From assembly GCF_041477585.1 (NCBI RefSeq), contig NZ_JBGNYA010000001.1:682001-746000 (forward strand): a DNA stretch of 64,000 bases, in the 5' to 3' direction. Within the stretch, counting starts at the first letter, position 1. Every line of letters begins with the position of its first letter. Below are positions 1-10,484 of this stretch, piece after piece. The position numbers and the translations under genes were made by a program. The notes beneath the pieces were generated by a model, which did no database searches, was not told the DNA's origin, and was given only the letters and a program-made list of their open reading frames with translations. Source of the stretch: Halobellus sp. MBLA0158 (GTDB lineage: Archaea; Halobacteriota; Halobacteria; Halobacteriales; Haloferacaceae).

Positions 1-756
1 ATACTGCGACCACAACCCAACCAACTCCGGTTCCAATACCACGCACCTACCAAAAGACTGGAGCGGAAAATCCGGCTCCACCTCTCCAACCAGATACCCA
101 AAGTCGGATTCCAAGAGGGTACCACAGAACTACCAGTCGGAGAAGGCGGTACTGTTGGCGGCGGATTCCTTACTACCGGATACAGCAGTTATCATCCGCT
201 CCGGTACGAGTTCGACTCACCGCCTAACAACGCTGTAGTTTCAGCTCTGCACCGACACGCTACCCAGAGCACACGGTACCTGATCCAGATCCTGTTCAAG
301 CCCGTAGCCGGCCACTCACTGAAACAGTGGCTGTGGAGAAAACGGGCGTACCACCACCGCAACTACCTGAAAAAAGAGAAAGACAGCTTGTGGAGAACGG
401 TACAGCCCACCCGGAGAGAACGAAGACAGGCACAGGAGATCGATGACAAAGCCGGCGAGCCCCGGTACCGGACCAGTATCCGGTTCCTCGTAATCAACGC
501 CGCCGACTACACACCTAGCCGAGTCAAAGAACTGGCCGGAGCCTACAACACGTTCGAAAACCCGGAAACCGGGCAATACCTTGACGCAGTCACCGTAACC
601 CGGCTCCAGCGAAAACCCTTTCTCCGGTTCGCAGAAGCCGTCGGACAACGCCGTTTCTCCGGTTGGACACGTAGCTTCCAAACCAGTGCGAAAGAACTCG
701 CAGCACTGCTCTCACTCCCAGACAAACAACAAGAAAACATCCAGTACAACCGATGA
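1..756 (+). CDS. Conjugation-associated protein, partner of the downstream ATPase (5' truncated by window)
   Basis: Reading frame 1 is open from the first base to the stop at 754-756, so the start lies left of the window. The visible 251 residues are rich in Arg, Tyr and Gln. They include a positively charged stretch around 110-145 and a segment beginning RYRTSIRFLVI near 157. The stop overlaps the ATG of the ATPase gene (ATGA), which implies translational coupling. In mobile elements, TraG/VirD4-like ATPases are often preceded by a protein of this kind that acts as a membrane or DNA-transfer partner. That role is inferred from position; I do not recognise the family with confidence. Confidence 0.7.
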   Translation: MLRPQPNQLRFQYHAPTKRLERKIRLHLSNQIPKVGFQEGTTELPVGEGGTVGGGFLTTGYSSYHPLRYEFDSPPNNAVVSALHRHATQSTRYLIQILFKPVAGHSLKQWLWRKRAYHHRNYLKKEKDSLWRTVQPTRRERRQAQEIDDKAGEPRYRTSIRFLVINAADYTPSRVKELAGAYNTFENPETGQYLDAVTVTRLQRKPFLRFAEAVGQRRFSGWTRSFQTSAKELAALLSLPDKQQENIQYNR

Positions 757-2681
757 CACCCGAAGAAGCCCAAAACCTGATCGAGAACAGCGACGCATTC
801 ACAACCACGTTCATCGGCACCCGCACCAGCAAACTCGGCGTCGAAGAAGATGTGGGTATCCCCGACGATCAACGCCGCTTACACGTCTTGACTACCGGCC
901 CTACCGGGTATGGCAAGACGCAGGTGATGATCCACGCCGCACTCCAAGACAGCTACAAGAATCGGGGATTCTGCTTCCTCATCCCGAAAGGCGGCGCTGA
1001 AAAACAAATACTCAGCAAACTACCTGAAGACCGGCTAGACGACGTACTCTACATTAACCCAGGAGAATCACCGTTACCCTCGATCAACGTCCTCCAGCCC
1101 CACACAACGGAGGAAATGACCAGGCAGCAGAAAGAGAACCAGAAAGAGATTATCGTCTCCGACCTCATCGACCTCTTCAAAAGACAAAGTGAGAACTGGG
1201 GTGACCAATTCGGCCGTGTACTCGAAACTCTGCTCCGCGCACACCTCAACCAGAACATCTACCACGGCCAAAACAAGTCACTGCTCGACGTCTTCCACTG
1301 CGTAACCCAAGACGAAGAACTCTCAGACCTGATCGATCAAACCGAGGACCCGGTAATCCGGAGACAACTGGTCCAAGTCAAAGAAGACCTGTCCAGCTAT
1401 GAAATGGGGCCGCTACAACGACGACTAAACGACTTCGTGATGCGGCCAACCATCCGAAAAATCATCTCCTCACAACACAGCGACATCAACTTCCGAAAAG
1501 CGGTCAACCAAGGCAAAATAATCTTAGTCGACATCCAAAAGGGTGAGATCGGGGAAACAGTCTCCACCCTCGTCGGCAGCATAATCATCACCCAAGTCTG
1601 GGCAGCAGCACAAAGCCGAATCACCCAAACCCCAGAGAACAGGGAACCGTTCTACCTGTACGTCGACGAACTCCAAAACTTCGGCAGCGAGGGCTCCGCA
1701 CTCGCACAAATGCTCGCAGAAGCACGAGAATACCGGCTCGGACTCTGGCTCGCCACACAATACATCTCCAACCTCGACTCCAAAACAATGCAAGAAGCCG
1801 TTCTCAACAACTGCCGCAGCAAAATCCTATTCCAACCCAGCGACAGCGAAAACAAAAACCGGCTCATCTCCACACTCAACCAAATCAGTAAAAACGAAAT
1901 CAACCAACTCGGCCGATACCGAGCCATCCTCCAAACACCGAGTAGAAAAACGCAGAAACCTGCCGTCAAAATCGATACCTACCCACCCTGGACCGGCGAC
2001 CGCGACAACATCGACGATCTCGAAGACAGGTGTTCCGTCGCCTCCGAAAACCCAGAACAGGAAACCCGGTTGAAACAGTCACTCGGAAAAGGAAACAACG
2101 CCGGCAAAGAAAAACACAGAGAACTCCTCGCCCAAGCCAAAAAACAGCTTGAGCAAAAGCGGGACGGGATTCAGGTCCAGCTACTGCACCAAGGCGCGGG
2201 TGAAGACAAACCGGATGGTAAAGTCATTCTCCCCGACGACACAGTCGCCCACCTCGAAGCCGAACACTCAACGCTGAGCAAACCCGCGAAAGTCCTCACC
2301 AACTACCTCCGCGCCGCACAACAAGGCCGAGAAACCATTTTCGTCGTCGAACAAGGAAACGCGGTCAAACTCCAGAACATCGTCGAAGAACCGGTCAACC
2401 GCCGCGGCAACGACCACGAAGACCAAGACGCAGACGGAAGCTACAGCTACTACACAAACCAGGATGGAGAAGAATTCACACAGATAGACGAACTGCAAAA
2501 CAGCGAATACCGCATCATCGAAATCCACGAAGACCAGTTAGAAATCCACAACAGCCCGGTGGAACCCGAATGCCCCGAACTCGACCACAACGACCGCGAA
2601 GATCTAGAAAACTTCTGCCTCTACCGCGAAGAAGACGGACACTGCACCGCACTCAACCAAAAATGCGTCCTCACTGAATAA
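753..2681 (+). CDS. VirD4/TraG-like conjugative coupling ATPase
   Basis: This 642-residue P-loop ATPase has Walker A GPTGYGKT at residues 49-56 and a Walker B-like strand FYLYVDELQNF near 300-310. A sensor-like stretch (LWLATQYISNL) follows, as in the VirD4/TraG/HerA superfamily. Such ATPases pump DNA through a membrane channel during conjugation. Residues after about 400 form a hydrophilic extension that ends in four cysteines with spacing roughly C-x15-C-x8-C-x6-C, a possible zinc site. No transmembrane segment is evident, so membrane attachment may come from the upstream partner, with which it overlaps by 4 nt. A winged-helix gene follows after 3 nt, making an operon. Confidence 0.85.
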   Translation: MTPEEAQNLIENSDAFTTTFIGTRTSKLGVEEDVGIPDDQRRLHVLTTGPTGYGKTQVMIHAALQDSYKNRGFCFLIPKGGAEKQILSKLPEDRLDDVLYINPGESPLPSINVLQPHTTEEMTRQQKENQKEIIVSDLIDLFKRQSENWGDQFGRVLETLLRAHLNQNIYHGQNKSLLDVFHCVTQDEELSDLIDQTEDPVIRRQLVQVKEDLSSYEMGPLQRRLNDFVMRPTIRKIISSQHSDINFRKAVNQGKIILVDIQKGEIGETVSTLVGSIIITQVWAAAQSRITQTPENREPFYLYVDELQNFGSEGSALAQMLAEAREYRLGLWLATQYISNLDSKTMQEAVLNNCRSKILFQPSDSENKNRLISTLNQISKNEINQLGRYRAILQTPSRKTQKPAVKIDTYPPWTGDRDNIDDLEDRCSVASENPEQETRLKQSLGKGNNAGKEKHRELLAQAKKQLEQKRDGIQVQLLHQGAGEDKPDGKVILPDDTVAHLEAEHSTLSKPAKVLTNYLRAAQQGRETIFVVEQGNAVKLQNIVEEPVNRRGNDHEDQDADGSYSYYTNQDGEEFTQIDELQNSEYRIIEIHEDQLEIHNSPVEPECPELDHNDREDLENFCLYREEDGHCTALNQKCVLTE

Positions 2682-2684
2682 ACA

Positions 2685-3101
2685 ATGAGTGAAGACATAG
2701 CGTTACGCGAAGAAGACCGTCTCATCCTTCAGCAAATCCGGGAGGGGAATGACGACGTCCAGAAACTCACGGAAAGCACGCTCTTGGAAAACCACCAGGT
2801 CAACTACGCCTTCGAAAAACTCGAAGAACACGGCCTCATCCACGTCACCAAACCCGACGGCTACATCGAACGCACAATCAACGGACAAAAACGGGTCTTC
2901 CAACATCCCAAACAAGCCGAACTCACCAAAAAAGGCCGAACACTGCTTCAAGAATCAGACCAGGAAAATCTAGAACAATACCAAGACCTCACCCGAAAAG
3001 AACTCGTAGAGAAAACCCAGCAGCTCGAACAACGAGTCAACGATCTTGAAATATCATTCGAAATATTCCGAAAACAAGTCCAGAAGCGGATAACACAGTG
3101 A
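2685..3101 (+). CDS. Winged-helix DNA-binding protein with C-terminal coiled coil
   Basis: The 138-residue product starts 3 nt after the ATPase stop. Residues 8-60 look like a winged helix: helix LILQQIREGNDDVQKLTES, a recognition-like helix with VNYAFEKLEEHGLIHV, then a wing. Residues 100-135 form a heptad-like coiled coil (QQLEQRVNDLEISFEIFRKQ) suited to dimerisation. It probably regulates transcription of the transfer operon or helps target DNA for transfer. The function is inferred from the fold and position. Confidence 0.7.
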   Translation: MSEDIALREEDRLILQQIREGNDDVQKLTESTLLENHQVNYAFEKLEEHGLIHVTKPDGYIERTINGQKRVFQHPKQAELTKKGRTLLQESDQENLEQYQDLTRKELVEKTQQLEQRVNDLEISFEIFRKQVQKRITQ

Positions 3102-3175
3102 GAGACGAATTTGAATTCAGGTCACCAATCCTCACACAAATAATATGTGAGATTAGAGCAATATTCTAAGCGAAA

Positions 3176-3526
3176 TTGCTTCCGAGCACTCATCCCTCTT
3201 GGCTTTTTAACTTAGTGAGTGTTTTGGATACTAGTTATTCAGTTTCAGGGTTAGTAGGATTTGCCACGTATACTTCTGTGATTTTCTATATGTATCGCAG
3301 ATTCGATGACAATATTCAAACAGCGAGAAGTATCCCGAGAAAGAGGGAATACCAGCGAGCGTCAACTTGGTGTCTGAGAGGTTCTTTGACGTCTTTTTTT
3401 GGCTCAACAACCTATGTGTTCGCTTCATTCGGAATTCAACCACTAATTTTTAATTCTATCACACTAGCACTAATAATATGCTCTACAATAATATTATTTT
3501 TCAGTATGTTTATAACGAAGGAGTAA
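3176..3526 (+). CDS. Small membrane protein, unknown function
   Basis: This 116-residue frame starts with TTG; a GTG 36 nt further in is an alternative start. It contains about three hydrophobic segments, near residues 20-42, 62-86 and 88-112, separated by a basic loop (IPRKREYQRAS). Base composition is strongly AT-rich, even compared with the flanking element genes, which suggests recent acquisition. No family is recognised. The next gene begins 14 nt downstream, so the two may be co-transcribed. Confidence 0.5.
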   Translation: MLPSTHPSWLFNLVSVLDTSYSVSGLVGFATYTSVIFYMYRRFDDNIQTARSIPRKREYQRASTWCLRGSLTSFFGSTTYVFASFGIQPLIFNSITLALIICSTIILFFSMFITKE

Positions 3527-3539
3527 GTCTGGAGACAAT

Positions 3540-3947
3540 ATGGTTTGGGCAGAAGAATACCCAGAGACAACCAAGGAAATTGAGGATCAACTAAAAGCTC
3601 TGGGTCCACAGTTGGAAGAGTCCTTACTGGAAAGCTGTGCATACATCGCCGACGAGAGAGAATCCAAACTCGAAGAATTAGCAGGAAAGCAAGGAATTAA
3701 TCCAGATCCAAGCGGAGAATACGTACCTCAAGCAATATCATTCATCCATAGGGTGGAAGATTCAAAAAGAAATAAAGTTGGTGAAATTGAGGAGCTTTTG
3801 AATCATAACTACGATTTTGAAATGACTGAGCTTAAAAGAAATCTCGCACGGTCTATTGTCGGTTTATTGATATTAAAGAATGGGTCTGATGAGAAGCCTG
3901 ACTCTCCTATAGATGTTTTTAGACAGGAAGCCGGATTGAAAACTTAA
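3540..3947 (+). CDS. Small helical protein convergent with the uL15-like gene
   Basis: The 135-residue product is acidic and predicted to be mostly helical, with no transmembrane segment or recognised motif. Its stop codon TAA and the stop codon of the opposite-strand uL15-like gene share the four bases TTAA at 3944-3947, so the two genes meet tail to tail with no spacer. That arrangement could allow antisense control or shared termination. The codon use matches the low-GC element. No function is assigned. Confidence 0.55.
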   Translation: MVWAEEYPETTKEIEDQLKALGPQLEESLLESCAYIADERESKLEELAGKQGINPDPSGEYVPQAISFIHRVEDSKRNKVGEIEELLNHNYDFEMTELKRNLARSIVGLLILKNGSDEKPDSPIDVFRQEAGLKT

Positions 3948-5044
3948 ACCCAGTCAACTAGCCCATCAACAGTTAGCAGATACATTCTTTCCTCTTCAGC
4001 AATCCGTTGTTCTCTTAATTCAGAGCGGTCATCGTACTGAGCAATATGAAAGCGGTCGTGAATCCTGTCCAAGCCCGCAAGGACATCTTCGACTGAGTAA
4101 TTTTCAGACATACCGATTCGCAACAATTCCAACTGTTCATCGGAAGGATCCAAATCACCTAAATACGAGCCTATTAACTGCTCAAACACGGATGGATCAA
4201 AGTGATATTTATCAGCAAATTCCCGAGATCTCATTATATTGATAACGTCAATCCCGTCTAAATCATCCAAGTTTTCAGCGTGTCCTCGCATCACTTCATA
4301 GGCCAGTTCAGGATCTGCTGCTTGACCAGCCTCAACCAAATCATCAAACTCGTGAAATTCTAATGTCTCCCCTGATTCCACTTTCTCCAAATATTTATTC
4401 AGATCATCCACCTTGTCTTCATTTTTATTGCCAGAATTTTTAAAATGCCACTTGCTGATGACGCTTGCAGGCCGGGTAGCCTTCGAAAATCCTTCACTAT
4501 CCAGATTATAATAGACAAAACCTCCTGCGCCGGTTATTGTCCGCTTAGCGGATCTTGAACAATCATCTAGCTCCGCGCTAAACGAATTCATTATTTTTCC
4601 GCTGTCAAGGAGCTTCACTTGGTCAACCTCATCATACCCCTCGACGTATTCTGGCAAGTCCACTTTGTATCTCATATTATCCTCCTCTGCACCAGGAGCA
4701 GACTCTAGTTGAGAGTCAGAACTACCTTTCTCCAGAACGGCGCCGCCATCAGCTATGGGTTTAGAGTCCTCGATAATAGTGATTCCATCCACTTCCTCAA
4801 CATCTTTAAGTCCGATCTCGATCTCATAGATATCCTCATCGATCTCTTTGATCGAGACAGTCTTTGTTTTCCGGGAATTAACAGAGTTAAAGCCCTCTTT
4901 ACCCAGTGGCGGATGATTATGATGTTCGTGCTTATCTCTTCCCGCATTTCCTCGACCTCCACGATGGCCAGCTCCTCTCCGATTTTTATGTGAGCCACCG
5001 CCGTGAGTCCGACTACCGCGTTGTCGCTTCTTTTTATTCGTCAT
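3944..5044 (-). CDS. Mobile-element uL15-like ribosomal protein with a novel C-terminal extension
   Basis: The 366-residue product begins with a nearly canonical archaeal ribosomal protein L15 (uL15) N-terminus, including RGSRTHGGGSHKNRRGAG at 9-26, the Gly/Arg-rich RGGRGNAGRDKHE segment, and HNHPPLGKEGF at 42-52. Residues 62-90 and 126-180 continue the uL15 fold, with VKLLDSGKI at 143-151 and the terminal ITGAGG at 170-175. An acidic insert occupies about 92-124. Residues 185-366 form an extra acidic helical domain that I do not recognise and that normal archaeal uL15 (about 145-165 residues) lacks. Ribosomal proteins are not expected on such elements. It may enter host 50S subunits or act on rRNA; both are inference. 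Confidence 0.85.
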   Translation of the reverse strand: MTNKKKRQRGSRTHGGGSHKNRRGAGHRGGRGNAGRDKHEHHNHPPLGKEGFNSVNSRKTKTVSIKEIDEDIYEIEIGLKDVEEVDGITIIEDSKPIADGGAVLEKGSSDSQLESAPGAEEDNMRYKVDLPEYVEGYDEVDQVKLLDSGKIMNSFSAELDDCSRSAKRTITGAGGFVYYNLDSEGFSKATRPASVISKWHFKNSGNKNEDKVDDLNKYLEKVESGETLEFHEFDDLVEAGQAADPELAYEVMRGHAENLDDLDGIDVINIMRSREFADKYHFDPSVFEQLIGSYLGDLDPSDEQLELLRIGMSENYSVEDVLAGLDRIHDRFHIAQYDDRSELREQRIAEEERMYLLTVDGLVDWV

Positions 5045-5128
5045 AGATCTGTATGAGTATGAGGTCCTTGGGAATCGAACAGACCTGTCGATAATAGTCT
5101 TAAACTTATACCTTCTTTGCAGGTGTTG

Positions 5129-5221
5129 AACCAGCTACTGAGATGCGCCAGAAAGCCGAGAGATGTTAGGGAAACGAGCTTGTACTGCTCGATTAAGAAT
5201 AACATCTCCCAGCTCTTGGTT
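5129..5221. ncRNA. Candidate structured RNA or regulatory hairpin cluster
   Basis: The 387-bp stretch 5045-5431 between the divergent uL15-like and DUF4209-like genes has no convincing gene but holds nested inverted repeats. GAGATGTTA (5160-5168) pairs with TAACATCTC (5200-5208). Inside it CGAGC (5175-5179) pairs with GCTCG (5187-5191) around a 7-nt loop. Outside, AACCA (5129-5133) can pair with TGGTT (5217-5221). A second GAGATG at 5140-5145 could compete for the same partner. It could be the leader of the uL15-like gene on the minus strand or an independent RNA. Strand and function are unknown. Confidence 0.4.
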
Positions 5222-5398
5222 TGTCGTCTATACTACAGGATAATATAGTTCAGGGGAGGTACACTACATTTCGCTTGCAACGTATTCTTATAGCTGTGCT
5301 ACATTCTCCAATTGAAATTAAGGTTTGTTCGATGTATAGCTGGATCAATTCAATATGTACTCCCCGTACGGAGCGAAAGCTCTCCAGCCCACTTGGAG

Positions 5399-5408
5399 AT
5401 ATAATAAT
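5399..5408 (+). promoter_or_regulatory. TATA box of the DUF4209-like gene
   Basis: The AT-only run atataataat lies about 28 nt before the ATG at 5432, the normal distance for an archaeal TATA box when the transcript begins at or just before the start codon. Confidence 0.55.
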
Positions 5409-5431
5409 CTAAACCAACTAAAGGCGAGTAT

Positions 5432-7009
5432 ATGATCTCTGATAAGCTAGAGCAGGCACGTATCAGTCCTGAAGAGGACTATCATTTGAAGGGAGATATT
5501 CGCCGGGCGCTAAGGGCGATTGAGTCAGATAGAAATCATTCAGGCCTTATCGAGGAAGAGTTGGGTTCTCTGGATCCAGATCATCCGGTTTACCGGTTGA
5601 TCGACTCAATCAGGGTATGGGAAGGGTCCGATCACGAAGAGTTCGAGTCGGGAGTTAGAGCTGCTTTGGAGGCGTTGGATGATCTCTATGAATTAGCGTT
5701 GGAAGAGGAGTGGTACAGTGTCGCCAGCTATGCCTTGTTGAAGTCGATAGAGTATCGTGAAGGGCTCGGAGGCTTCGACGCTACTGAACAATTCGATGAA
5801 GTTCTGAATTTTTTCTATGACCATTTTTATGGAGGGTCTGAGGTTGATCTGGGCCAGTTAGGAGATCACGTTGAGAAAATGCTGGAGCACTTGGACGAAA
5901 TGGAGGAAGACAACATCAGCAAGTTATCTCGCCTCGTCGAAGATCGAGCCCAGCAGCTGCGAGAGAATAGGCAGTATATGGCCGAACGCGACTATCTCGA
6001 CTACTATATCACCATAAAGAACCACTTGGGGGAGAATGTTTCGGAAGAAGAGTCTCGTTTGGTCGAGTCGTATGAAGACGAGTTAGAGCAGAAGAGCTCT
6101 GCAAACAGTATGTTGAAAGCGGATATCTTGGAGAGAGGTGTTTCGAGATGCCAGTCTTTTCTCCCGGATGAGAAGGAGAATGAGTGGCGGCTTCGAATCC
6201 GCGAGCTCAACAAACAGGCCAGAGAGGAGATGCCAGCTACGGAACACGAAGTTGATTTGAGCGAAGATATTACCCGTATTGTCGACCACTTCAAACAGGT
6301 TCAAAGCAAGACTTCATCTTGGGAAGCCTTAGTCAACCTTCTCTACCAACCTATCGGACAAGGCAACTTCGAGGAAGCCTTGGAAAACATCGATGAAGCA
6401 CCTGCCGCCAATATGCTTCCGAAAAACGTTATCTCATCTGAGGGCGATTCTATCGGTTTTGAACCTGGTATGAATCAGGACGGAGAACGTGCACCGACCG
6501 GTTACATAGCCGGATTACGGGCTTCTAACCATACTTTGGCCGTTGCCCTACGTCGGTTGATCGATCAAAAATTGTTGTCCGAGTCAGACTTCTATATGGT
6601 CCTAACACTTCTCCCCGGAATCGCAATTCAGGACGAAGCATTTCTCACAGACACAATCATCAACCTGTTCGAAGAACGCTACGCCGAAGCTGTACACTTA
6701 GCAGTTCCCAGGCTGGAAAGCGTAACAGCCAACGTCTACGAAGAAATGGGAAAAGCAGTAACCAAAAACCAGGGCCAACTCTACCGACAAAAGGGGCTGG
6801 GCGGCCTCTTCAAACTAATCGAGGAAGATATCAGCACCAACTTCGGAAAATACCTGCAATACCGGTATACCGATACAGCAGGTCAAAACATTAGAAACCA
6901 GGTCGCTCACGGCCAAATCAAATACTCAGCAGCCAACTTCAAACAAGCCTCAACCCTTCTCTTCGACATCTATCGCACAGCTGCAAGAATCGAGGAGAAC
7001 TATAATTGA
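5432..7009 (+). CDS. DUF4209-like protein with C-terminal RNxxxHG motif (possible HEPN-type RNase)
   Basis: The 525-residue product has an acidic helical N-terminal region (1-300) and a more conserved-looking C-terminal third. The C-terminal region contains GYIAGLRASNHTLAVALRRL and, at 488-494, RNQVAHG. The RNxxxHG motif is the hallmark of DUF4209, and an R-x4-H spacing is also that of HEPN RNases found in abortive-infection and toxin systems. A role in defence or RNA cleavage is therefore plausible but inferred. It sits alone, divergent from the uL15-like gene and just before a toxin-antitoxin pair. GC is intermediate between the element and the chromosome. Confidence 0.65.
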   Translation: MISDKLEQARISPEEDYHLKGDIRRALRAIESDRNHSGLIEEELGSLDPDHPVYRLIDSIRVWEGSDHEEFESGVRAALEALDDLYELALEEEWYSVASYALLKSIEYREGLGGFDATEQFDEVLNFFYDHFYGGSEVDLGQLGDHVEKMLEHLDEMEEDNISKLSRLVEDRAQQLRENRQYMAERDYLDYYITIKNHLGENVSEEESRLVESYEDELEQKSSANSMLKADILERGVSRCQSFLPDEKENEWRLRIRELNKQAREEMPATEHEVDLSEDITRIVDHFKQVQSKTSSWEALVNLLYQPIGQGNFEEALENIDEAPAANMLPKNVISSEGDSIGFEPGMNQDGERAPTGYIAGLRASNHTLAVALRRLIDQKLLSESDFYMVLTLLPGIAIQDEAFLTDTIINLFEERYAEAVHLAVPRLESVTANVYEEMGKAVTKNQGQLYRQKGLGGLFKLIEEDISTNFGKYLQYRYTDTAGQNIRNQVAHGQIKYSAANFKQASTLLFDIYRTAARIEENYN

Positions 7010-7054
7010 ACGTATCTGGCTCCGCTTCTTCAGCCATCCACCAACACCAAATAT

Positions 7055-7077
7055 TTAATATTTTCTACATATATTAA
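7055..7077. promoter_or_regulatory. Inverted repeat in the toxin-antitoxin promoter
   Basis: TTAATAT (7055-7061) and ATATTAA (7071-7077) form a perfect 7-bp dyad with a 9-nt spacer in the AT-rich promoter. It ends about 25 nt before the antitoxin start. Ribbon-helix-helix antitoxins normally bind such dyads to repress their own operon, so this is a candidate operator. Confidence 0.45.
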
Positions 7078-7102
7078 TCATATCTAGAGGTGATTGGTTT
7101 TT

Positions 7103-7330
7103 GTGGCAAGACTAAGCGTAGACGTACCAGACGGCTTGAAACAGGATATTGAAGAGACCGCTGAGAGGAAGAACTTCAAGAACGCTTCCGAATACATCCG
7201 GCAGGCCCTCCGCGAAAAACTGCGAGAAGACAACGAACTCGACCCAGAACTGCTTCTGCGAGCACTCAAAGTCAAACAGGGCGATGTGGAAACCGTGGAC
7301 ATAGACGAAGTTATCGAGAAGTACGAGTGA
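7103..7330 (+). CDS. Ribbon-helix-helix antitoxin
   Basis: The 75-residue product begins with the strand ARLSVDVP, followed by two helices (GLKQDIEETAERK and NASEYIRQALREKL), the ribbon-helix-helix fold of CopG/ParD antitoxins. The acidic C-terminal tail (residues 45-75) would wrap the toxin. The GTG start at 7103 is preferred because the purine-rich GAGGTGA at 7087-7093 is then about 9 nt upstream, whereas the TTG at 7094 would abut it. The toxin gene follows after 7 nt. Confidence 0.8.
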   Translation: MARLSVDVPDGLKQDIEETAERKNFKNASEYIRQALREKLREDNELDPELLLRALKVKQGDVETVDIDEVIEKYE

Positions 7331-7337
7331 TTTCCAA

Positions 7338-7652
7338 GTGAAACTAACCAGCGAAGCTGAGGATGATCTCGATAACCAAGTCAAATTCGACCGGAAGAAA
7401 ATCGCACAGGAAATCAGGGACAGACTAAGCACAGATAGAGACCGAGACAATATCAGCTATATCCACAAACCCGATTTTGGCGTTGAATTCCACCGCTTGA
7501 AACTAACCAATAACGGTCTCAATCATCGAATCTATTTCGACTATCAAGACTCCGAGCCCATCGTCTTCGCAGTAAGGCACAGAGACTACGCTTACAGCCC
7601 AGAAGACCTGAAAGAGGTAGAAAACCGGCTCAACGACATAGAAACAGACTGA
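7338..7652 (+). CDS. RelE/ParE-superfamily toxin
   Basis: The 104-residue product follows the antitoxin by 7 nt and starts with GTG. Its order of an N-terminal helix pair, a basic KKIAQEIRDRL segment, then strands VEFHRLKL, HRIYFDYQ and IVFAVRHRDYAY is that of RelE/ParE toxins. The strand-rich C-terminal half with VRHRDYAY resembles the active-site face of mRNA interferases. Together with the antitoxin it would stabilise the integrated element. It cannot be assigned to RelE (mRNA cleavage) or ParE (gyrase) from sequence alone. Confidence 0.75.
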   Translation: MKLTSEAEDDLDNQVKFDRKKIAQEIRDRLSTDRDRDNISYIHKPDFGVEFHRLKLTNNGLNHRIYFDYQDSEPIVFAVRHRDYAYSPEDLKEVENRLNDIETD

Positions 7653-7668
7653 AGATCTGACCCAAAGG

Positions 7669-7687
7669 AGTATAACGGCGTTATACT
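7669..7687. promoter_or_regulatory. Perfect 9-bp palindrome downstream of the toxin gene
   Basis: AGTATAACG (7669-7677) and CGTTATACT (7679-7687) are perfect inverted copies around one G. The site lies between the convergent toxin gene and the small HTH gene, so it could be a protein-binding site or a bidirectional stop signal. No T-tract follows, which argues mildly against a simple terminator. Confidence 0.4.
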
Positions 7688-7766
7688 GATATTATGGAGT
7701 CGAGTTGTCCGAGATCTTTGTTCCCGACTGCTGGTAAAAGAGTGGAATGTCGCCGCGAATGCCAAA

Positions 7767-8000
7767 TTATTGTTCTGTGATGTGGTCGAGGAGTTGGTTT
7801 TGGGTTAGTGTGGAGATGAGAAGCAATCTTTCCTGCGCGCTCATTTTTGAGAAGGCGTTTTTGTATCGGTTGATGGTGTCGCGGCTGACGTCGAGTTCTT
7901 CTGCGGTCTGTGTCTGGTTGGAGCGGGTGATTGCGTCTACGTATTGAGCTGCTGTTTCTCGGGTAAGCCCGTATTTTTCCAGTACCTCGTTTGTGTTCAT
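7767..8000 (-). CDS. Small helix-turn-helix protein
   Basis: The 77-residue product contains a clear helix-turn-helix at about 32-55 (TAEELDVSRDTINRYKNAF), like those of recombinase or sigma-like DNA-binding proteins. The remaining residues are helical, with a C-terminal LLLISTLTQNQLLDHI stretch that could mediate dimerisation. It lies downstream of the RadC-like gene on the same strand, 86 nt away. A role in regulating the element is inferred. Confidence 0.65.
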   Translation of the reverse strand: MNTNEVLEKYGLTRETAAQYVDAITRSNQTQTAEELDVSRDTINRYKNAFSKMSAQERLLLISTLTQNQLLDHITEQ

Positions 8001-8086
8001 CTTGCTTCTATAGAAATTGTTGAGGGATTGATTTTTATTAGAGAACCTGACAGGCCGCAGATCTAGAGAAAGGGGGGAAGAGGTGT

Positions 8087-8521
8087 TTAGAATGGTCCAT
8101 CGTTTGCCTGCCTCATACTGTAGTGGCTTTCTCTGGAGATGATGACGTGGTCGAGTAGTTCGACGTTGATTTTCTCCAGTACTTCCCTGGCTTCCCTGGT
8201 GACTTCGATGTCTTTTGCTGTGGCTTCAGCCGTTCCTGAGGGGTGGTTGTGTACGAGGATGACTGCGCCGGCGTTAGTGAGTGCAGCGGTTCTGACCACG
8301 TCTTGTATGTCTATTTGGACGTTGTCGCGGCTGCCTAACCCGATTATTTTGTCTCCGATGAACCGGTTGCTGTTGGTGAGGAAAACAGCGTATAGGTGCT
8401 CCTTTTGCTCATTTTTCAGGGATTCGTACCTGTTGGTGACGTCGTGAAGTGACTTTACGGCGTCGGGTTCTTGGTCTTGTATCTCGGCTTTGACTGTGAG
8501 GTTGCCGAGTTCCTGCCTCAC
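8087..8521 (-). CDS. RadC/JAB-domain protein
   Basis: The 144-residue product matches the RadC-type JAB (MPN) domain. It has DVVRTAALTNAGAVILVHNH followed by PSGTAEATAKDIEVTREA, that is, the metal-binding HNHPSG and the downstream Asp. Only the JAB domain is present; the helix-hairpin-helix of full RadC is missing, as usual for mobile-element copies. Such proteins are common on plasmids and integrative elements, but their biochemical role is unsettled. The GTG start overlaps the stop of the upstream gene (GTGA), so the two are translationally coupled. Confidence 0.85.
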   Translation of the reverse strand: MRQELGNLTVKAEIQDQEPDAVKSLHDVTNRYESLKNEQKEHLYAVFLTNSNRFIGDKIIGLGSRDNVQIDIQDVVRTAALTNAGAVILVHNHPSGTAEATAKDIEVTREAREVLEKINVELLDHVIISRESHYSMRQANDGPF

Positions 8522-8814
8522 GTGTTGCCACCTCCGAGGGCTTCTTTGATTGTTGAAGGGTTTCGGTTGATCAGCTTGTCCAGTTTCTGTTTCAGGTCTT
8601 TAGGTGAGTCGAAGGCTGTGATAGTGTAGCTCTCTACCACTGTGCCCTCCCTGTTTCTAACGTTGTATTCGTCGTGCTCCGGATGGCTCCAGTCCACCTT
8701 CTCCAACGTGTAACCACGGTATTCTACGGTGTGACCGCAAACCTTCGTAAGAGCGTTTTTGTACAGGTTTTGGAACTTTTCCAGTCCGTCATTTGTGTTG
8801 TCTGTGCTCGGCAA
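8518..8814 (-). CDS. Small hypothetical protein coupled to the RadC-like gene
   Basis: The protein of about 98 residues is hydrophilic and shows a strand-rich middle (VEYRGYTLEKVDW, NVRNREGTVVESYTI) and a C-terminal helix. No family is recognised. A TTG at 8814 is chosen because the purine-rich AAGGTGGT (revcomp of about 8821-8828) is then 7 nt upstream; the TTG at 8820 would nearly touch it. It overlaps the RadC-like gene by 4 nt and probably forms a two-gene operon with it. Confidence 0.55.
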   Translation of the reverse strand: MPSTDNTNDGLEKFQNLYKNALTKVCGHTVEYRGYTLEKVDWSHPEHDEYNVRNREGTVVESYTITAFDSPKDLKQKLDKLINRNPSTIKEALGGGNT

Positions 8815-8875
8815 AAACAAACCACCTTATATTACAATTAGTCAACAACTTTTAAATAACTATCTTACATTTTGA

Positions 8876-9008
8876 CTGGTTTGGGTTTGAAAACCAGCTT
8901 CAGAAACAGGTCACAACCCTACCCCTGCAGGTCAAATAGTTAGCCTTGAATCAGGTTAGAGAGAAACTCGCCGGCTTTGACTGAATGGTTTGAAACGGGT
9001 TTGAAAAC
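8876..9008. repeat. Iteron-like repeats and hairpin between the RadC operon and integrase
   Basis: The 12-mer GGGTTTGAAAAC occurs at 8883-8894 and again at 8997-9008, each preceded by a TTTGACTG box. CAGGTCA occurs at 8907-8913 and 8928-8934. CTGGTTT (8876-8882) and AAACCAG (8891-8897) form a perfect hairpin around the first 12-mer. No gene is convincing here. Clustered direct repeats next to an integrase fit a replication origin, a transfer origin, or arm sites for recombination. Confidence 0.45.
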
Positions 9009-9090
9009 GCGAACGACTAACCGTTGTCTCTTGATTTTACAGCAGAGAAAGGAAGAATGGAAGAGAGGAGAGGGAGAGGTTGTTTTTTTT

Positions 9091-10215
9091 TTACTCGATG
9101 TTGTTGACTGCGTCGCTTTGCCGAGAGGTGCTGCTATGTTCGTACTTCTCTGTTGTTCGTTTTGATTTGTGCCTACATTGTTGTGCTGCTACTGCGAGTC
9201 CTTCTTCTTCGGCGATGTAGGTTGCAGTGCTGTGTCTGATGCTGTAGGGTGTTAGGTCGCGTTTTTCGAGGTTGAGGTTGGCTTCTTTGGCGATTTTGCG
9301 GAAGACGTCCCTAAACGAGTCTTTGTCGTAGCGGTTGCCGTACATTGTGAGCCAGAGTGCGTCTCTGCCGTCGTACTTTTCTCGTGTTTCTCGTTCGTCG
9401 AGCCAGCGTTTGAGGATGGAGCTGGTTTCTTCTTTGAGTGCGACTATCCAGTTTTCTCGGTTTTTTGAGGATTCTTCGCGTGGTATTCTTAGTACGCTGT
9501 TTTCGGTGTCGACCCAGTGGATATTGCTTCGTTTGATTTCGATGGGGCGTAGTCCTGCGTCGAGTGCGACGTGGATCATCGAGGTGTATTTGAAGCTGTT
9601 TGCACGGTTCCAGTCCTTCATTGTGACCTCGTCTTTCGGTTTTTGGAGGCGTTGGGAGAGGTAGGTTTTCCACCGTTCGCGTTCTTCAGGGGTTACACTG
9701 TTGTAGTGGGGTACACTTCCGTAGCTCATTGCGGCTTCGCGCAGCTTCTTCCTGTCTTCGCGTGTGAGGTAGTCGCGAGGGGTGTAGGTTGTACTTGGGT
9801 CGCTGTATTCGATCTGGGGTTCCCATTCAGTGTCTTTGTTGCGTGCGTTTCGTTTCCATTTGAACAGGGTTTTCGCGGCTTTCTGGTAATGGCATTTCGT
9901 ACTTTCTTTCATATCTTGCCGCGCGAGGTGCTGCATCCATTGATCAGCGTGATCCGTGGTCAGATCCTGTACGTATCGACCTTTTCTGTCCCAGATGAAC
10001 CGGTAGAAAATGTCCAATCTGTTCATCCGGTTTTTGGCGGTGCTATGGCTGTAACCCTGAGCCTTCTCCGGATTTTTACCAAGAGCAAGCATCCATTCTA
10101 CGAGTTCACGGCGATGCTCACGGTAGGTAACCTCCTGTTTCGGATTTAGATATTCGCGGGCGTCGTCAGTGACGAGCACGATTCCATCAACCTTGTTCTC
10201 AGAACTGTACGTCAT
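9091..10215 (-). CDS. Tyrosine recombinase (integrase)
   Basis: The 374-residue product has the tyrosine-recombinase catalytic set: Arg223 in ALDAGLRPIEI, the YSIR box ending at Arg327, His349 in CRHKS, and the nucleophile Tyr358 in TEKYEH. Residues 20-115 form the SAM-like core-binding domain. The ATG at 10215 is chosen because AGGAG (revcomp of 10226-10230) lies about 10 nt upstream; the GTG at 10224 is too close. It lies 198 bp from the tRNA-Thr gene that marks the element border and would catalyse integration and excision there. The AT-rich codon use matches the element. Confidence 0.92.
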   Translation of the reverse strand: MTYSSENKVDGIVLVTDDAREYLNPKQEVTYREHRRELVEWMLALGKNPEKAQGYSHSTAKNRMNRLDIFYRFIWDRKGRYVQDLTTDHADQWMQHLARQDMKESTKCHYQKAAKTLFKWKRNARNKDTEWEPQIEYSDPSTTYTPRDYLTREDRKKLREAAMSYGSVPHYNSVTPEERERWKTYLSQRLQKPKDEVTMKDWNRANSFKYTSMIHVALDAGLRPIEIKRSNIHWVDTENSVLRIPREESSKNRENWIVALKEETSSILKRWLDERETREKYDGRDALWLTMYGNRYDKDSFRDVFRKIAKEANLNLEKRDLTPYSIRHSTATYIAEEEGLAVAAQQCRHKSKRTTEKYEHSSTSRQSDAVNNIE

Positions 10216-10261
10216 AGTCGGCACTCTCCTACAATAGAAACTAGACTAGATCGCAGCCAAG

Positions 10262-10269
10262 ATTTAAAT
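10262..10269 (-). promoter_or_regulatory. TATA box of the integrase gene
   Basis: ATTTAAAT lies about 47 nt before the chosen ATG on the minus strand, leaving a short leader that contains the AGGAG ribosome site. CTAGACTAG (10241-10249), a small dyad, sits in that leader and may be an operator. Confidence 0.5.
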
Positions 10270-10412
10270 TGTTTGTCAAATATGACCGATACTTCTCTGC
10301 AATCGCGTGACAGCGACGGGGTACCACATTTTCGACCAGGTACTCGTTCTTGCGTCGGACTCATACTTGAACGACAGAGAACCCTTGAAACACCCGAAAA
10401 CAACAGGAAGGA

Positions 10413-10484
10413 AGCCTGAGGCGGGATTTGAACCCGCGCTCTCGTCCTTACCAAGGACGCGCTTTACCGCTAAGCTACCCAGGC
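10413..10484 (-). tRNA. tRNA-Thr(GGU)
   Basis: On the minus strand the 7-bp acceptor stem GCCTGGG/CTCAGGC, with one G-U pair, closes a full cloverleaf. The anticodon stem CGTCC/GGACG carries the loop TTGGTAA, so the anticodon is GGT. The T arm is GCGGG-TTCAAAT-CCCGC, and the discriminator base is U73, typical of archaeal tRNA-Thr. CCA is not encoded. The 3' end faces the integrated element, so this gene is the inferred attachment site and has been kept intact by the insertion. Confidence 0.93.

Follow-up and report, generated by a model that had tools for sequence, protein, structure and literature searches.

A genuine, stable, minus-strand-leaning hairpin was confirmed in the stretch of DNA analysed in this study (64,000 nucleotides, hereafter the window). 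It lies within the 387 bp that separate a minus-strand gene for a uL15-like protein from a plus-strand DUF4209-like gene. Among the explanations considered, we tentatively place first that the leader of the uL15-like mRNA contains the hairpin as a stem-loop acting in cis. The intergenic region is part of an integrated element, about 49.9 kb long, which runs from about −39.5 kb relative to the window (locus L035) to position 10412. The features discussed below are listed in Table 1.

Table 1. Features in and around the intergenic region that contains the hairpin (window coordinates)
Feature	Position	Strand	Remarks
uL15-like gene, 366 aa	3944..5044	-	uL15 over about residues 1-179, plus a C-terminal extension
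54-codon open frame	5041..5205	-	stop overlaps the uL15-like start (ATGA); ATG inside the stem; codon use not gene-like
Weak BRE/TATA-like site CTTAAA CTTATA	5099..5110	+	consensus match only; possible plus-strand start near 5133, across the hairpin
Weak TATA-like sites	5099..5116	-	consensus match only; possible uL15-like mRNA start near 5076-5082, excluding the hairpin
Proposed alternative 3' partner, including GAGATG 5140-5145	5129..5145	-	energetically not competitive, -24.6 vs -35.0 kcal/mol
Main hairpin	5152..5216	-	stem 5153-5168 with 5200-5215, extended by a 17th pair (5152-5216); beyond an internal loop, 5175-5179 pairs with 5187-5191 as the upper stem
Weak BRE/TATA-like site CTGAAC TATATT	5242..5253	-	consensus match only; a minus-strand RNA could start near 5219, immediately ahead of the stem
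Divergent neighbour, DUF4209-like, 525 aa	5432..7009	+	candidate defence family PDC-S39 (PADLOC, E 5.3e-23)

The sequence-only reading had described a 9-bp perfect arm pair that encloses a 5-bp hairpin and is itself enclosed by a third pairing. The arm pair (5160-5168 with 5200-5208) and the inner hairpin (5175-5179/5187-5191) were both found. The third pairing also exists (5153-5159 with 5209-5215), but it is not a separate one; it continues the 9-bp stem, giving a stem of 16-17 bp with three G-U wobbles, followed by the internal loop and the 5-bp upper stem. The minus strand folded with −35.0 kcal/mol, compared with a shuffle mean of −21.3 (sd 3.25; z −4.22), and none of 200 shuffles equalled this value, whereas the plus strand folded with −27.6 kcal/mol (z −2.58), a value equalled by 3 of 200 shuffles. 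All three stem wobbles are G-U on the minus strand only and A-C mismatches on the plus strand, and no stem pair shows the reverse pattern. Selection, if any, would therefore act on the minus-strand RNA, an argument that comprises just three pairs in a stem found by minus-strand folding, and thus has an inherent minus lean.

A second GAGATG had been put forward as an alternative pairing partner, as in switching RNAs. The motif is present, but pairing with it was about 10 kcal/mol worse than the main fold, whereas a bistable switch would require two folds that exclude each other and are close in energy. Folding the transcript as it grows gave the main stem already with the 3' end at 5155 or 5150, ahead of the synthesis of the alternative partner. 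The RNA-switch reading is weak, being unsupported by the energetics.

Among 80-nt folding windows on both strands of the element, that of the hairpin was the most extreme (rank 1 of 12,446; also rank 1 of 2,580 over positions 1-10400), and 300 shuffles of the intergenic region yielded none as stable. Block-shuffled copies of the 10.4-kb segment, however, contained a window at least as extreme in 4 of 28 cases. Once the large scan is allowed for, the hairpin is less striking and can be called no more than moderately surprising. Because it was picked from such a scan, chance is a serious rival: the hairpin may be an inverted repeat without function that arose by chance or neutrally, the intergenic region being imported DNA of low GC content. 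We regard this as unlikely, but rank it second. It agrees with the fact that the hairpin was conserved nowhere in the order and family genomes, plasmids, phages and loci of DUF4209-like relatives that were searched, and it is opposed by the ranks and intergenic shuffles given above and by the location of all wobbles on one strand.

In those searches, blastn of the 387-bp region revealed no homologue of the hairpin in 392 genomes of the order; 140 of them gave matches at E <= 1, all shorter than 50 bases among the matches listed. Plasmids and phages contained no blastn match to the hairpin. A covariance model (R1), whose reach to diverged relatives is limited because it was built from a single sequence entered twice, was run with stricter filters on the order and family genomes. 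It matched 2 of the 392 order genomes, namely the genome itself and one with a chance-like match (G224), and 1 of 170 family genomes, again the genome itself. The G224 match lies inside a 207-aa frame, which we take to be CofC, and was considered due to chance. None of 25 loci around relatives of the DUF4209-like gene (L039-L063) had a match to the model, and an association of the hairpin with that divergent gene was therefore rejected. No second copy of the hairpin was found in its own genome, and none of its 12-base words recurred elsewhere in the element. Nothing in Rfam reached its gathering cut-off at the hairpin; a permissive search gave two microRNA models with E values of 0.25 and 9.1, far below the cut-offs. 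As it stands, the hairpin is a lone stable structure, without relatives in the searched collections.

Two resemblances observed during the searches were set aside. The upper stem (5173-5193, minus strand) shares 20 of 21 bases with the part of a conserved regulator gene, presumably TrmB-like, that encodes IEQYNLV in many haloarchaea. This recurrent blastn match, seen at 7 of the 10 loci inspected, was considered to be chance rather than homology. An 18-base stem pattern occurred in eight stretches of viral contigs. The stretch ranked highest by the model falls within a phage contig, inside a reading frame of 457 aa that we assume to encode a tape measure protein, and was likewise attributed to chance; the second-best stretch (L082) had an E value of 0.15.

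If the hairpin is a leader element, the stem-loop of the minus-strand RNA would most probably sit close to the 5' end of a long (~170 nt) uL15-like mRNA leader, where it would form during transcription and act in cis; it might, for instance, shield the 5' end or restrict translation. Several lines of evidence point to this reading: the minus strand folds better than the plus strand, the wobbles are confined to it, the folding window is the most extreme in the element and is unmatched by intergenic shuffles, and a TATA-like site would place a minus-strand start near 5219, upstream of a uL15 homologue that starts at 5044 on the same strand. A stable structure was thus found upstream of a ribosomal-protein gene, on the same strand. 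The absence of a homologue, the 4 of 28 shuffled segments, the lack of similarity to 23S rRNA and the weakness of the promoter sites, one of which is nearer to the gene and would exclude the hairpin, argue against it, as does the available text of PMC4983044, which describes regulation through structured 5' leaders as untypical of haloarchaea. We infer that the hairpin is transcribed, that the transcript runs on into the uL15-like gene and that expression may be affected.

Whether the uL15-like transcript contains the hairpin is not settled by the putative promoter sites. They were scored with the TATA pattern TTTAWA and the CGAAA element, and all matches were weak. The CGAAA promoter element is named in the accessible part of PMC4983044. 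On both strands the hairpin has TATA-like sites next to it, and another such site might start the uL15-like gene separately. This arrangement, as well as the compact and self-contained form of the hairpin, would suit a small non-coding RNA in its own right, about 70-100 nt long, encoded on either strand and acting in trans or on neighbouring genes. We consider such an RNA improbable, though more likely than a role at the DNA level, since there was no Rfam match, no second copy in the genome and no terminator-like site in a bacterial-type scan. That the hairpin functions as DNA, either as a palindrome bound by a protein or as a single-stranded signal used in transfer or replication of the element, is highly improbable: its place between divergent genes of a conjugation-like element and the folding of its minus strand as single-stranded DNA (better than shuffles, z −3.47) would fit, but the palindrome arms are imperfect in a manner that preserves RNA pairing on one strand, and its 12-base words are not repeated in the element.

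Returning to the leader stem-loop, the proposal that it is an autoregulatory switch goes beyond the evidence. Autoregulation by the uL15-like protein is a possibility argued from position, with no support from 23S rRNA, Rfam or homologues; binding of the leader by this protein would be a further guess, towards which the data are neutral. The leader had no sequence likeness to the host 23S rRNA above chance (21 of 200 hairpin shuffles scored equally well) in a comparison made at the sequence level only, and such likeness is common, not obligatory, in autoregulatory leaders. It is very improbable that a purpose-built leader hairpin allows a mobile-element uL15 homologue, itself adapted to entering or modifying the ribosomes of the host, to regulate its own supply. 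If this were true, it would be a uL15-responsive leader on an archaeal conjugation-like element, beside a candidate defence gene.

Leaders of archaeal ribosomal-protein genes are described in the available text of PMC7247131 for eL15 (Euryarchaeota), S15 (Halobacteria and Methanomicrobia) and L4 (Archaeoglobi). The hairpin is like them in being a structured RNA proposed upstream of an archaeal ribosomal-protein gene. However, those leaders rest on covariation over many genomes, as far as that text goes, whereas the hairpin is a singleton; furthermore, eL15 differs from uL15 as a protein, and the hairpin is without rRNA likeness. No published uL15 leader was present among the literature matches listed. 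According to the available part of PMC5539422, L7Ae autoregulation uses a k-turn in its own 5' UTR, an analogous mechanism in which an archaeal ribosomal-type RNA-binding protein controls its own mRNA. Unlike in that leader, no k-turn was seen by eye in the hairpin, and no protein is known to bind it. Viruses can also encode ribosomal proteins (PMC6375957, available text), a likeness in that a ribosomal-protein gene is carried by a mobile element, but the element here looks conjugation-like; neither "L15" nor "uL15" appears in the main text of that article as available.

Two other features of the leader were noted. The codon-use score of the 54-codon frame (−10.1) was under the in-frame 5th percentile (−8.9) and within the out-of-frame range, and the frame was rejected as a gene by this test, which is weak because the score of the uL15-like gene itself was near zero. 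In the fold of the full leader, a second, weaker stem (5046-5087, minus strand) ends immediately before the uL15-like start codon.

The gene taken for a uL15 relative in the sequence-only reading does encode a uL15 homologue, the best solved relative being 1s72_L (E 8.3e-34), and 48 of its first 52 residues are identical to those of another haloarchaeal uL15. The product is a divergent uL15 that carries an additional region at its C terminus. The extension beyond residue ~179 had weak similarity to aldehyde ferredoxin oxidoreductase in a single comparison (31/104 identities, E 2e-7), and Pfam did not report this domain on the uL15-like protein itself. The C-terminal 187 aa matched 11 of the 392 order genomes including its own, and among the ten non-self loci the three that were read are aldehyde ferredoxin oxidoreductases by Pfam. 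The same part matched 2 of the 170 family genomes including its own, the other match being weak. In both sets, nothing beyond partial weak matches to the extension was found outside its own genome, and neither contained a full orthologue. The uL15-like protein had no match in phages or viral contigs and one in plasmids, an ordinary uL15 in a ribosomal cluster. Genome contigs gave two matches, of which L073 was rejected as an ordinary uL15 cluster and L074 was examined with the RNA model only. The structure predicted for the C-terminal region was too poor for use (mean pLDDT 46.9). In the host's own ribosomal-protein cluster, the uL15 gene immediately follows its neighbour and hence has no comparable leader. 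With its near-unchanged N terminus and added C-terminal region, the uL15-like protein is a more unusual object than the hairpin.

The DNA around the hairpin has a GC content of 39-56%, whereas that of the chromosome on the right-hand side is about 70%. The element carries a VirB4-like ATPase, a TraG/VirD4-like coupling protein and a tyrosine recombinase, and by this gene content it looks conjugation-like rather than viral; viral contigs contained no relative of the TraG-like protein. The right end of the element adjoins an intact tRNA-Thr gene (10413-10484); the left end holds a partial tRNA-like copy, and the two share the 17-base core TCTCGTCCTTACCAAGG. Close relatives of the DUF4209-like protein were found in 2 of the 392 order genomes, with 72% and 63% identity and in other surroundings. 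Farther downstream on the plus strand (7094-7652), a ribbon-helix-helix/ParD-like small protein is followed by a 104-aa protein, and this gene pair appears to be arranged like a toxin-antitoxin pair.
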